A stretch of DNA of 21,703 bases from a virus: the IMG/VR virus record IMGVR_UViG_3300032309_000357, positions 1-21,703 of that record; one strand, 5' to 3'. The notes under the pieces were generated by a model, which was not told where the DNA came from, searched no databases, and saw only the letters and a program-made list of their open reading frames with translations. How positions within the stretch are numbered: the first letter of the stretch is position 1; each line of letters starts with the position of its first letter. Position numbers and translations under genes: made by a program. Positions 3,008 to 21,237 of this stretch are shown piece after piece.

Positions 3008-3961
3008 CTAATTTGCGGAATTTGTAATTCCGTATGTGACGATGTCTTGAACTACACCATACTGAACACCGGCGCTTAGGCGCATAATTACGCGAACATT
3101 CTGGCTGCCGTCGATGTCTGCTAAATCAATAACCTTAACTTCAGTGTGGTCAGACAATAAAGAAGTACCAAAGTATAAGTTATCTTTAGTTGTAGCGATT
3201 GCTTTGTTAGCACCCATTCCGTTTGCTACAAAGATTTTAACGCCATCAAAAGAAAGAGAACCATTGTTATACCACTGAGTTCCTAAAGCGTTTGTACCGT
3301 TAGCACCTAAACCAGATGCACCAAAACCACCTAAAGCACGAACGTAAGCACGAGCCATGTTCTGAGATACGTAGATATATAAGTCTTCATTTCCGTAAAG
3401 AGCAGCAGGGATAGCATCAACGATTTTACCCATTTCAGCAACTACGTTAGCAGCAGTAACTGTTGTACCGGCAACTTCGTTAGCAGTTGGTAAAGCAGCA
3501 TCAGCAGCTAATAAAGTAGCAAAGCCATCAAACTCACCTGCGTTAGCAGTTACACCTGACCAGATATTTGTCTCATTCTTTGCAGCAACTTTAGCAGCTA
3601 CGTGAGCTACCAAGAAATCTTGGAATGAAGTTGGCAATACATCAAATGAAGAAAAACCTTGTTGTGCAGAAAGGTAATCCGAGTGGAAATCTTTCTTGCA
3701 AAGTTGTAAGTTAACTTGGAATTCCTCTGGAGTGATAATACGCTCAGTCAAAGTGATTGTTGAAGTAGCATCGAAATCGCAAGTTGCGTTCTTTAAAATA
3801 TCATCTGTAGATAAACGCTTGATGATTTCTTTGTACTTAATGTTTGGTTTAACAGTGATACCACCAGCTTCGATAGTTGGAGCTGATAATAATGCAGCAG
3901 CGATAATTTGGTCTTTAAATTCACCGCTGTAAGTTGTAGTAATACTTGTGCTAGTTGGCAT
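3008..3961 (-). CDS. Major capsid protein (HK97 fold)
   Basis: At 317 residues this has the size and character of an HK97-fold major capsid protein, the subunit of the icosahedral shell. It has an N-terminal arm, an Ala/Gly-rich composition, a central TPEEFQVNLQLCKKDF region near 77-92 and a C-terminal part ending with VRVIMRLSAGVQYGVVQDIVTYG, similar to the C-terminal strands of such capsid proteins. The QDFLVAHVAAKVAAKNETNIWSG region (about 111-133) resembles the spine-helix segment, where many of these proteins carry an ExxxWxG-like motif. Neighbours support it: a scaffold-like gene is just upstream and a protease before that. The start is preceded by AAACAAATAAAAAA, a strong A-rich Bacteroidota leader. 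The fold is inferred, not tested. Confidence 0.85.
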   Translation of the reverse strand: MPTSTSITTTYSGEFKDQIIAAALLSAPTIEAGGITVKPNIKYKEIIKRLSTDDILKNATCDFDATSTITLTERIITPEEFQVNLQLCKKDFHSDYLSAQQGFSSFDVLPTSFQDFLVAHVAAKVAAKNETNIWSGVTANAGEFDGFATLLAADAALPTANEVAGTTVTAANVVAEMGKIVDAIPAALYGNEDLYIYVSQNMARAYVRALGGFGASGLGANGTNALGTQWYNNGSLSFDGVKIFVANGMGANKAIATTKDNLYFGTSLLSDHTEVKVIDLADIDGSQNVRVIMRLSAGVQYGVVQDIVTYGITNSAN

Positions 3962-15955: not shown

Positions 15956-16383
15956 TATTTATTGTCTTGTTTAAATACATTATAAACTTGTCTTATTTGC
16001 GAAATGTAATCTCTCCAGCATGAAGCGCAACTAGATTGCTCTAAACGAAAATTGAATATTCTAAAGTAAATATCCGATAACTCCCATTGTACTTGTGGAA
16101 CTATCTCATTCTGTGGCTTAGAGAAAAACTCTTTTAGGTATTCATAGTCTTCTTGATTTAAGCACTGAGGTTTACGATAAGACCAAAGCTGGTTTAGTTT
16201 CTCTTTCCGTTCATCACATCCGCAGTCCCAATCTAATGCTTTAGAAAGCATTTCTACACCTTTCTTAATTCCTGTAACGGTTGTAATCGCCTCAATGGTA
16301 TCACCTAACCCTTGAGCGTTTGAGAATGTAGCTACCTCTTTAGGCTCTACGTCAATTAATTCTTTGTTTGATTTTCTTGCCAT
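15955..16383 (-). CDS. Conserved Cys-containing phage protein (142 aa)
   Basis: This 142-residue protein starts MARKSNKELIDVEPKEV. It has Cys54 and Cys56 in DWDCGCDERKEKLNQLW, Cys74 in KPQCL and Cys119/Cys122 in SSCASCWRDYISQIR, five cysteines that could bind a metal ion (C-x-C with C-x2-C). The GIKKGVEMLSKALDWDCGCD region is a pattern I associate with Bacteroidota phage proteins next to the terminase or sigma-like gene, without known function. Its start overlaps the sigma-like gene by 28 nt and it ends in the TAATG shared with the methyltransferase. A regulatory or packaging-related role is possible from location; not established. Confidence 0.7.
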   Translation of the reverse strand: MARKSNKELIDVEPKEVATFSNAQGLGDTIEAITTVTGIKKGVEMLSKALDWDCGCDERKEKLNQLWSYRKPQCLNQEDYEYLKEFFSKPQNEIVPQVQWELSDIYFRIFNFRLEQSSCASCWRDYISQIRQVYNVFKQDNK

Positions 16384-16808
16384 AACTTTAATTTTAATTT
16401 ACATTTTTTAATGGTATTGTAAACGCTCATAAACCCTATGTTCGTTTCCCTTGATAATTTACGTATTGAAATTCGATTGTTTACCCAAAGCATAAATAGC
16501 TTTTTATCATACCAATCCCACGTATCAATAAACTCAATAAACGGCTGGGCTAGTTCTTCTGCTAGATCGTTGCTTTCATCTTCTCTTAAACTATACTCAA
16601 TGTCCTGTGTTACTTCTACCTTAACCACTTTCTTGGAATGTAAGTCCATCGTAAGACTTCTAAGCGTATAGTAAAAATAAGCCTCGTTAATATCTTTGCC
16701 ATAAACTTTAATGTATGCTTCTTGGACTACGTCTTCGGCGTAATTGACCTCGCCAAACTTTTTAACAATTGAAACCCAGTGCTTATGACGTGAGTATATA
16801 TGGTCCAT
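16356..16808 (-). CDS. RNA polymerase sigma-factor-like protein
   Basis: This 150-residue protein has the two-domain layout of a small ECF-like sigma factor. Region 2 spans about 2-60: YAEDVVQEAYIKVYG (23-37) is the usual conserved helix and FYYTLRSLTMDLHSKK (45-60) follows. An acidic linker (REDESNDLAEELAQP) leads to region 4 at about 98-145, where DKKLFMLWVNNRISIRKLSR and ETNIGFMSVYNTIKKCKLKL form a helix-turn-helix of region-4.2 type. It probably directs host RNA polymerase to phage promoters; the neighbouring virion genes are natural targets. It begins at the stop of the small gene upstream (TAATG). The alternative is a phage transcription regulator or terminase accessory protein that uses the same fold. 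Confidence 0.75.
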   Translation of the reverse strand: MDHIYSRHKHWVSIVKKFGEVNYAEDVVQEAYIKVYGKDINEAYFYYTLRSLTMDLHSKKVVKVEVTQDIEYSLREDESNDLAEELAQPFIEFIDTWDWYDKKLFMLWVNNRISIRKLSRETNIGFMSVYNTIKKCKLKLKLWQENQTKN

Positions 16809-19188: not shown

Positions 19189-19949
19189 TATTCGATAGGT
19201 TTAATTTGTCCGTCTTCCGTAATATACGCTTTAAAGTCTGCTAAGTTTTCTATGAATTCCTTGTAGCACATAGCTTTGCAGGCCATAACAAGTTCTTCTT
19301 TGTCAGCAAATTTGTTTATGTTACTAGCGTAAATCCTTTGTTTATCCTCAAGGCTTGCCTCGTAGATCCCAAACTTTACGATGTAGTCGTATAAAACGTG
19401 GAGGCCACCGGCTATCCAGTTCATTTTTATATTTCGCTCATGGCATCTAATCATTTCTTGAGCATACATATTAGCCGAGTTAATCGCTGCCATCTTTAAG
19501 TCTGCGTCGCTAGGAATTTCCTTTAATACCTCCTCGACTTGCGAAACGGTTATTGTCTCTTGCCTAGCGTAGTCGATATAAGCTTTCATTATTCGCCCAA
19601 AGTATTCACAAGAAAAGTTTTCGTAGCACTTAGCATCCACGTTTAGCTTACCACTTACCGCCCAATCAAAGGCAAGCTTTATTTCCTCTGGTGTTTGATT
19701 TCCAAAGTTTGATCGAATAAAATTTAGCAAGACAAACTTTTCCTCTTCGGTTGGCATATTATTGCCTCTAAGGCCGACTAAAACCATTGCATAGCGTAAG
19801 ACTTGTTTAAGGTCTTCTTCGTGTCTTAGACGCAAAGTCTGAGTGCTTCTTGCTTGAATTATAACGTCTGCCGTTACGTTACCAGTTCTTGATTGCTTCC
19901 ATTCTTGCTGCGCTCGTTCCAAGTTTCGGTTCGTTGTTTGTAGCTCCAT
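19188..19949 (-). CDS. Replication-associated protein of unknown type (start at 19949)
   Basis: The frame is open from 19994, but I prefer the ATG at 19947-19949 (MELQTTNRNLERAQQEWKQS), which follows an A-rich leader; the product is then 253 residues and overlaps the replication gene end by 71 nt. The rest is helical: LRLRHEEDLKQVLRYAMVL, TEEEKFVLLNFIRSNFGN, PEEIKLAFDWAVSGKL and CYENFSCEYFGRIMKAYIDY. It follows the initiator and precedes RusA, a place where phages often keep a helicase loader or a second replication protein. I see no Walker A, so loader activity is only a guess. Function unresolved. Confidence 0.65.
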   Translation of the reverse strand: MELQTTNRNLERAQQEWKQSRTGNVTADVIIQARSTQTLRLRHEEDLKQVLRYAMVLVGLRGNNMPTEEEKFVLLNFIRSNFGNQTPEEIKLAFDWAVSGKLNVDAKCYENFSCEYFGRIMKAYIDYARQETITVSQVEEVLKEIPSDADLKMAAINSANMYAQEMIRCHERNIKMNWIAGGLHVLYDYIVKFGIYEASLEDKQRIYASNINKFADKEELVMACKAMCYKEFIENLADFKAYITEDGQIKPIE

Positions 19950-20577
19950 TGAATTGTTTTTTAGGTTCGAATATTCCTTGGTAATTATTTGCAATAGAAT
20001 TGTTAATAGCTTCTTCTAGCTCTTGATCGCTTTTATTTTCCCAAGTTCGATATAATTGTTTAATTCCGCTAGGTGTATACTTGGATTTTTTTTCTTTCTT
20101 ATAAGAAAACCATCGATTAAACAACTCATCTCTAAAAGACAAAATTTCTTCTTGTTGGTATTCTTCTTCTTGTTCTTCTTCTTTTTCTTCTTCTTCTTGT
20201 GGATGTGTATCCATACTGTATAGATACTCTATCAATACTCTATTTTTTACGTTCTTTAGTTCTTTTTCTACACAAGCCAAAACTTTAGGAGAATTTGAGT
20301 CATTAAACTTAACCCAGTTTAAAAGTGCTATTTCATTGGTTTCTTTAGAAAATCTAATCTTATTCTTTTCTTGAAAAAAATCTAATAGCTTTTGAACGGT
20401 TTCCGAGTTGTATCCAGTATCAAAGCAAATTTTTCTTAATGATGTTTCATAGATTCCACATTGTGTGGTCTTATCATTAGTCATTAAGTAAAGGTAAAAA
20501 TACTTTTGCTCTGGAGTAAGCTCGCCTACAAATGAATCAGCCCAAAAGGTTACTGATATTTTTCTAAATGCTGCCAT
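19879..20577 (-). CDS. Phage replication initiator (replisome-organizer-like)
   Basis: This 232-residue protein has an N-terminal segment (KISVTFWADSFVGELTPEQK at 6-25, YFYLYLMTNDKTTQCGIYET at 26-45) of the phage replisome-organizer N-terminal type: FW.D..V..L..EQK.FYLYL.TN...  .GIYE is typical and predicts a winged-helix DNA-binding domain. A very acidic low-complexity linker follows (about 127-144, mostly Glu). The C-terminal part, about 148-203 (ELFNRWFSYKKEKKSKYTPS, IKQLYRTWENKSDQELEEAI and NYQGIF), resembles a DnaD-like module that binds helicase-loading proteins. By analogy it binds the origin and recruits the host helicase. Its ATG must be 20577, since the conserved N-terminus begins there. 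It lies 13 nt after a terminator-like hairpin. Confidence 0.75.
   Translation of the reverse strand: MAAFRKISVTFWADSFVGELTPEQKYFYLYLMTNDKTTQCGIYETSLRKICFDTGYNSETVQKLLDFFQEKNKIRFSKETNEIALLNWVKFNDSNSPKVLACVEKELKNVKNRVLIEYLYSMDTHPQEEEEKEEEQEEEYQQEEILSFRDELFNRWFSYKKEKKSKYTPSGIKQLYRTWENKSDQELEEAINNSIANNYQGIFEPKKQFNGATNNEPKLGTSAARMEAIKNW
20146..20200. repeat. Purine/pyrimidine tract with repeated TTCTTCTTGT in the initiator gene
   Basis: TTCTTCTTGT occurs at 20146-20155, 20164-20173 and 20191-20200, spaced 18 and 27 nt apart, within a near-uninterrupted pyrimidine tract on the plus strand that encodes the Glu-rich linker. It may simply reflect the acidic linker. Phage initiator genes sometimes carry their origin in the same place, as in lambda O, which makes it a candidate origin region. 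Confidence 0.4.
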
Positions 20578-20589
20578 AATAAAATAAAA

Positions 20590-20620
20590 AAGCCAGCTAC
20601 GTGAGAGAGTAGACTGGCTT
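20590..20620 (-). terminator. Terminator-like hairpin just before the replication initiator gene
   Basis: The stem AGCCAG-CTAC/GTAG-A-CTGGCT (one bulged A) closes an 8-nt loop and on the minus strand is followed by T6-A-T4. It would stop transcripts from the upstream genes before the initiator unless overcome. Its proximity to the ATG (13 nt) is unusual for a simple operon terminator. Confidence 0.65.
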
Positions 20621-20673
20621 AGTTGGTTTTTTAACCCTAAATCACCGAAGAGCTCTCACCCACTTCGCTGATT
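20590..20673 (-). ncRNA. Structured leader RNA: two hairpins with complementary loops
   Basis: Minus-strand order: hairpin 1 (20640-20673) has a 10-bp stem with one C/C-type mismatch and a 12-nt loop containing GTGAGAG; a 20-nt linker follows with a small GGTT-AACC hairpin; hairpin 2 (20590-20620) has a bulged stem of 11 bp and an 8-nt loop containing CTCTCAC. The loop heptamers (20653-20659 and 20601-20607) are perfect complements, so the hairpins can form a kissing complex. Hairpin 2 is followed by TTTTTTATTTTATT and the initiator ATG, 13 nt downstream of the stem. The whole fits an attenuator or riboswitch-like leader; no known class recognised. Confidence 0.6.
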
Positions 20674-20692
20674 GTTTTGCAATATAAAAAAG

Positions 20693-20959
20693 CTATTTGC
20701 TTTTACAAAATCTTTTTTCAAAAATTCCTGAAAAATGTGGGTAGTCTTGCTCAAACTTTCTAGCATAATCAGCGGTAAAATTATTGTTTACCTTATATTG
20801 ATCATTGCGTTTAATTTTAGACTCCCATCTTATTCTTTCAAAAACTGATTTTGCACCTACTTTAATCTGTCCAGCTTGTATCATTTCGTGAGTATAGTGG
20901 ACAAACTCCTTATAAATCTTAGGATTTCTTTCTTGATATTGCTCGAATGTTTCTCTCAT
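20693..20959 (-). CDS. Conserved phage protein of unknown function (88 aa)
   Basis: The product from the ATG at 20957-20959 begins MRETFEQYQERNPKIYKEFV and continues VHYTHEMIQAGQIKVGAKSV, ERIRWESKIKR, YKVNNNFTADYARKF and GIFEKRFCKS. The pattern NP..Y..F......G....GAK.I.ERIRW....  D..K.NN....YAR.F is a conserved phage protein widespread in siphophages and some bacterial prophages; I know no function for it. An alternative start is TTG at 20969-20971 (92 aa). Overlap with the upstream 42-aa ORF would be 41 nt (ATG) or 53 nt (TTG). After its stop comes a short gap, then the structured leader. Confidence 0.75.
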   Translation of the reverse strand: MRETFEQYQERNPKIYKEFVHYTHEMIQAGQIKVGAKSVFERIRWESKIKRNDQYKVNNNFTADYARKFEQDYPHFSGIFEKRFCKSK

Positions 20960-21048: not shown

Positions 21049-21237
21049 TTAGTTTGTGTTTATTAGTGCATCTTGCACCGCTTCCCAGTAGTCTATGTCT
21101 TCTCCTAATGTAACTCCTACAAGTAAATCAATGTGTAGGATCGCGGAGGCTATTGCCTCTTCTTTGCTTTTCTTTGTTCTAACCTGAGCATTAGTAAAAT
21201 GCTTAATTAGCTCGGTTGCTTTTTGCTTTGGTGTCAT
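21049..21237 (-). CDS. Unknown small phage protein (62 aa)
   Basis: The product is MTPKQKATELIKHFTNAQVR and ends with GVTLGEDIDYWEAVQDALINTN, an amphipathic-helix protein of the small phage type. TPKQKATELIKHF resembles the start of the small protein family represented also at 16808-16984 (..AKELV..F.. ..YW..V..EI..), so this may be a paralogue. It lies after a dyad element and ends 1 nt before the 42-aa ORF. Function unknown. Confidence 0.6.
   Translation of the reverse strand: MTPKQKATELIKHFTNAQVRTKKSKEEAIASAILHIDLLVGVTLGEDIDYWEAVQDALINTN

Follow-up and report, generated by a model that had tools for sequence, protein, structure and literature searches.

The 21,703-nt stretch of phage DNA from IMG/VR analysed here (the window) carries two hairpins with fully complementary loops just ahead of a replication initiator gene, which raises the question of whether this leader is a genuine RNA element and what it might control. 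The first-pass annotation had described two independent stems with complementary loops before the initiator; we confirmed this arrangement on the minus strand, the comparative evidence being decisive.

All parts of the locus lie on that strand. Upstream is a promoter box composed of TTTG (20709-20706), 19 nt and TATATTGC (20686-20679), spanning 20679-20709. It resembles the Bacteroidota promoter consensus TTTG/TAnnTTTG, and a scan of the window returned a sigma-70-like promoter match at 20708-20681. The 5′ hairpin (HP1, 20640-20673) has the arms AATCAgCGAAG and CTTCGgTGATT, with one G-G mismatch, and the loop tgg-GTGAGAG-ct, whose kissing sequence GUGAGAG (20653-20659) pairs with 20607-20601. 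A predicted linker mini-hairpin, GGTTaaaaAACC (GGTT-aaaa-AACC, 20625-20636), is followed by the terminator-type hairpin HP2 (20590-20620), which has the arms AAGCCAG-t-CTAC and GTAG-CTGGCTT and the loop t-CTCTCAC. The second kissing sequence, CUCUCAC (20601-20607), is assigned from the predicted fold and covariation. The U-tract reported for the downstream hairpin is present immediately 3′ of HP2 (20591-20586), and the gap from HP2 to the ATG is short as reported, at 12 rather than 13 nt. The leader folds with a minimum free energy of -30.3 kcal/mol (z = -2.9; 2 of 200 shuffles were equally good), and its minimum-energy and centroid folds contain just HP1, the mini-hairpin and HP2. GTGAGAG and CTCTCAC each occur once across the 21.7 kb, and we estimated the chance of a 7/7 loop match at <0.1%.

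The first gene past the leader (19879-20577, ATG at 20577) encodes a 232-aa replication initiator or replisome organizer that matches PHROG 6251 (E 7e-46) and PHROG 1701 and, weakly, Pfam HTH_56. The terminase of the window has its closest counterparts, among named phages, in Flavobacteriaceae phages, for instance Nonlabens phage P12024L (60% identity). Near the late-gene side, positions 16356-16808 of the minus strand encode a 150-aa protein with a weak match to Sigma-70 region 2 (E 0.02), possibly a phage sigma factor; a sigma-like gene is annotated in phage P12024S as well.

Covariation among relatives

Initiator homologues were gathered blind to the leader. An architecture finder placed the element upstream of 45 of the 69, and four others (L019, L028, L037 and L044) carried one that was visible by eye. 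The first-pass annotation had named loops drifting out of complementarity as the observation that would speak against it. We found the opposite: the loops vary (GTGAGAG, GTCAGAG, GTAGGAG, GTCGGAG, GTGGTAG, GTTGCAG, ATGGTAC and others) and every variant remained fully complementary to its partner. Further elements were collected by using the lower HP2 stem as a search pattern while leaving HP1 and both loops free. In this group a GTNNNAG loop was matched by its exact complement in HP2 in all 66 distinct elements. Sets obtained with this pattern, or with the kiss fixed, are evidence solely for the parts that the pattern left free, and related sequences within the sets are non-independent.

In an alignment of 30 relatives, the loop-loop pairs were Watson-Crick in 210/210 cells over the seven positions. 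The covariation of loop pairs that had been proposed as a check was present: both partners had changed at the three middle pairs, and each of GTGAGAG, GTCAGAG, GTAGGAG, GTCGGAG and GTGGTAG was accompanied by its exact complement. Complementarity over at least 6 nt, kept by compensatory change, places the element among kissing-loop RNAs. Over all pairs of the alignment 96.8% of cells were paired; changes on both sides were seen in 129 cells, where shuffles gave 35.5 (0/500), and the covariation score was 0.407 against 0.132. The stems followed the same pattern, with changes on both sides in 10 of the 11 HP1 pairs and in all 4 pairs of the upper HP2 stem; the lower HP2 stem was invariant within the group. 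G-T pairs outnumbered A-C mismatches in the stems (18 to 5), as would be expected of a structure in RNA of the minus (leader) strand. A linker hairpin of 3-5 bp was found in 53 of 58 group elements, mostly as GGTT/AACC and also as GGTA/TACC, and a U-rich tract was retained in all relatives examined, even where the stems were unrelated. Since the loops co-vary in matched pairs, sequence comparison supports the leader as a real RNA control element, and an apparently undescribed one.

Distribution, first genes and loop codes

Scanning for the GTTGCAG/CTGCAAC code uncovered many elements with unrelated stems. We then used a de novo finder that asked for a loop 7-mer, its complement in a terminator-like hairpin, a promoter box and an ORF. 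The fetched loci yielded 189 matches with promoter and ORF (102 unique) and their reversed sequences none; for whole contigs the corresponding counts were 27 and 0. The made-up codes GTTCCAG and GTTGGAG gave zero elements with promoter and ORF in viral contigs. Of 98 elements selected solely for their ORF, 85 had TAnnTT[TG] at -25 to -5 of HP1 and 56 had the exact TAnnTTTG (background 0.018 per 21 nt). The box lies ∼13 nt upstream of HP1, and because it is so close HP1 is expected to form the 5′ end of the RNA, with transcription starting within a few nucleotides of it. The distance from the HP2 stem to the ATG was 5-44 nt (median 14).

The genes behind the leader are diverse. They include several unrelated initiator families (DnaD-like, Lin1244_N and HTH_36), NUMOD4/HNH endonucleases, a Mom-family protein, a DnaG primase-helicase and a ResIII helicase. 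Where a small gene intervenes between leader and initiator, as in several phages, the leader remains with whichever gene comes first. This is the case in the cultured Tenacibaculum phage JQ (MT002873), where an element with the code CATCCTA/TAGGATG, a U-tract near record position 36,057 and a 39-nt gap precedes the small gene ahead of the initiator homologue. The occurrence before HNH, Mom-type, primase-helicase and helicase genes suggests a leader of early transcription units generally. The earlier proposal of an attenuator of phage replication is thus supported in part and too narrow in scope, the element being far broader than a switch for replication. The leader-bearing phages are numerous and appear to have Bacteroidota as hosts. 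No element was found in the cultured phages P12024S and 11b (full genomes) or in most of phi10:1 and of phi17:1, and blastn of elements or first genes against named phages gave no related leader. Sequence comparison establishes the promoter box and U-tract, the two hairpins with their pairing loops, and the placement ahead of early genes.

These data bear on three other readings. An element acting at the DNA level, such as an origin or protein-binding inverted repeats, or a mere coincidence, would accord with replication initiators often being near. We regard this as hardly credible, and rejected a DNA-level origin, given the strand bias of G-T over A-C, the orientation fixed with promoter and U-tract, the HNH and Mom genes served, and the finder matches against none in the controls. 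The leader could also act as a 5′ stabiliser or translation element, its structure protecting the mRNA or shaping ribosome access and the U-tract being just an A/U-rich ribosome-binding region. Such a role would suit the predicted location of HP1 at the start of the RNA and the short distance from HP2 to the ATG; however, a U-tract directly after a GC-containing stem is kept across families with unrelated stems, including phage JQ with its long gap, and we consider the role distinctly unlikely. Control of ribosome access, also raised in the first-pass annotation, gained no direct support, as the start codon is unpaired with the element. The third reading is an antiterminator that modifies RNA polymerase, in which the kissing complex would bind the polymerase in the manner of put RNA or EAR and carry it past HP2 and later terminators. 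The leader's place at the head of early operons, its own promoter and a compact fold that is complete ahead of the U-tract are consistent with this mode of action, whereas the freely varying stems and most loop letters leave little conserved sequence for polymerase contact, and in several cases a lone small endonuclease gene is all that the element serves. We judge it very unlikely.

Stand-alone HNH/NUMOD4 genes with their own promoter and kissing leader were seen at L029:1167-1260, L205 (minus strand, ∼6330), L030:864, L076:3081 and in G407 (L356). Their code often differs from that of the replication operon, as though the endonuclease gene travelled together with its leader in a single cassette. 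The second elements of L076, L125 and G429 are HNH leaders with CTGCAAC in HP1 and GTTGCAG in HP2, the common code reversed. A similar two-hairpin leader with the loops GTTCCAG/CTGGAAC, without the Bacteroidota promoter box, occurs in L398 (∼7517, minus strand), L448 (1596) and L469 (1825, minus strand). It has no Rfam match and precedes a gene starting MQELVKVQPVVIGGEEVNAVNARDLHARLE that is antirepressor-like by eye and without a Pfam match (30 residues). The viral contig L469 also contains a match to the Type III hammerhead ribozyme at 3617-3672 (45.6 bits against a gathering threshold of 48.5, E 1.7e-7).

Close relatives differ in their leaders. The window and L002 have 100% identical elements with coding DNA at 91-92%, and L006 and L007 have another element in common. 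Between L002 and L007 the promoter is 88% and the coding DNA 90-92% identical, and the element only 66%; for L149 and L170 the values are 97% for coding DNA and 69% for the element. Across 577 pairs from three initiator families, those with at least 90% coding identity had median element identities of 92-100% when the code was the same and 69-75% when it was different. The leader therefore exists in discrete allelic forms, and close relatives can carry different ones. Differing codes were also found within single contigs carrying two or three elements, in ten cases as a raw count (L029, L030, L076, L125, L205, L073, G405, G407, G410 and G429). The 59-kb contig of L084 (G006) has one code twice, at 21,063-21,159 and 52,164-52,262; its two replication initiators belong to different families and each have one of these same-code leaders, and the contig may be a chimeric assembly.

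The pattern of alleles and of codes within contigs fits selection for specificity. One explanation, compatible with an attenuator, is that the terminated leader accumulates and pairs in trans with newly made leaders that carry its own code, which would result in negative feedback or keep out a second phage of the same type. The discrete alleles, the ten contigs with different codes and the much weaker pairing between loops of the wrong code (-2.4 to -5.1 against about -9 kcal/mol) speak for this explanation. On the other hand, the partner in cis is always close and should win, the L084 contig repeats one code, though perhaps as a chimera, and recombination that swaps conserved modules could account for the alleles. 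On balance we find action of the leader as a trans-acting specificity RNA rather unlikely. Extended further, this would give apparently non-lysogenic phages a specificity system that needs no protein, in which early-operon leaders recognize leaders of the same code, the resident limits its own copy number and excludes phages of its type, and the loop code diversifies into exclusion groups. We think this unlikely; such same-code exclusion resembles plasmid incompatibility, and if the codes did act in trans it would constitute an RNA-only exclusion system.

Candidate mechanism and known systems

The reading that we consider probable is a kissing-loop transcription attenuator of early operons. 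The upstream promoter and conserved U-tract fit a conditional terminator, and the gap between HP2 and the ATG is so short that, if HP2 terminates, the gene would require read-through. We infer termination, its regulation, the direction of control and any action in trans. Transcription would start at or next to HP1, making the element the 5′ leader of the phage early transcript. HP1 would fold first and present its 7-nt loop, and the HP2 loop, once made, would pair with it as a 7-bp kissing helix, while the outer HP2 stem would close on the U-tract as a putative intrinsic terminator. The kissing fold may then be the default terminating state, releasing a compact RNA of ∼85-100 nt, with the downstream gene expressed by read-through only when a factor (a protein, an RNA or a state of the polymerase) blocks the kiss or HP2.

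Whether the kiss favours or opposes termination is finely balanced, and we lean slightly towards the former. The kiss and the terminator stem have no nucleotides in common, so the two can coexist. The inner HP2 stem is as short as ∼3-4 bp in half of the GUUGCAG-code elements, where it rests on an internal loop of AGUA/GAA, so that the kiss would help HP2 to fold. Together these two features favour a default terminator stabilized by kissing. AGUA and GAA flank the inner stem in 24 of 47 GTTGCAG-code elements, compared with 0.5% when flanks were shuffled, and may be the signature of a bulged-G (sarcin-ricin) motif. Three observations count against an attenuator: in many relatives HP2 is interrupted by a bulge or by large internal loops, a simple terminator scan did not pick it up, and the minimum-energy and centroid folds contain no alternative antiterminator pairing, so that no switch is visible.

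Little is known about the timing of early genes in Bacteroidota phages. The leaders would form a widespread class of phage leader RNA whose code, a 7-nt loop plus the complementary sequence, is simple and readable, and they would offer a natural set of kissing-loop regulators orthogonal to one another; the cultured phage JQ is a system for testing the predictions.

The first-pass annotation had recognized no known riboswitch or RNA thermometer, and neither Rfam nor the papers found describe the element. Rfam 15 gave no match at the gathering threshold in the window and 14 related loci; in a permissive search the best sub-threshold match scored 19.4 bits where 55 were needed. No such element appeared in the literature searched, which comprised open-licence papers, so its absence there is no proof, and the main text of two structured-RNA surveys does not mention kissing.

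The closest functional parallels are the antisense-controlled leaders of plasmid rep genes, namely the pT181 attenuator and the loop-loop systems of IncB, IncI-alpha and IncK (PMC4878617, PMC10724649). Like the element, they combine an initiator leader, loop-loop kissing and specificity from a few loop nucleotides. The pT181 leader ends in a regulated intrinsic terminator, and the element has HP2 and the U-tract, a predicted terminator, between promoter box and ATG. The plasmid systems need an antisense RNA and/or alternative pairings, whereas both loops of the element are on one sense RNA, which also precedes non-replication genes. An antisense promoter was not enriched: TAnnTTTG, the only type counted, occurred on the opposite strand within 250 nt of 27 of 111 elements against ∼22 expected.

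In phages P1 and P4, the c4 and CI RNAs are short leader-derived RNAs with loop complementarity inside the same transcript, near genes controlling replication or lysis. Their architecture differs from that of the element, for which we saw no sign of lysogeny. The c4 antisense RNA family (RF01695, listed in PMC2864571) had no match in the window or related loci. A chromosomal or prophage element was rejected as well, as the GTTGCAG-code pattern had no clear copy in 395 Bacteroidia genomes and its matches in 11 of them look like chance.

In the cobalamin riboswitch the hairpin of the expression platform pairs through its loop with a loop in the domain upstream. The element has this loop-to-expression-hairpin pairing in common with it, without an aptamer core, HP1 being a single hairpin of ∼34 nt. 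In HK022, phage early transcripts begin with put RNA, a pair of hairpins without loop-loop pairing or an immediate U-tract of its own. The element would likewise open early transcripts with a pair of hairpins, but differs from put in its kissing loops, its own U-tract and stems that are not conserved in sequence.
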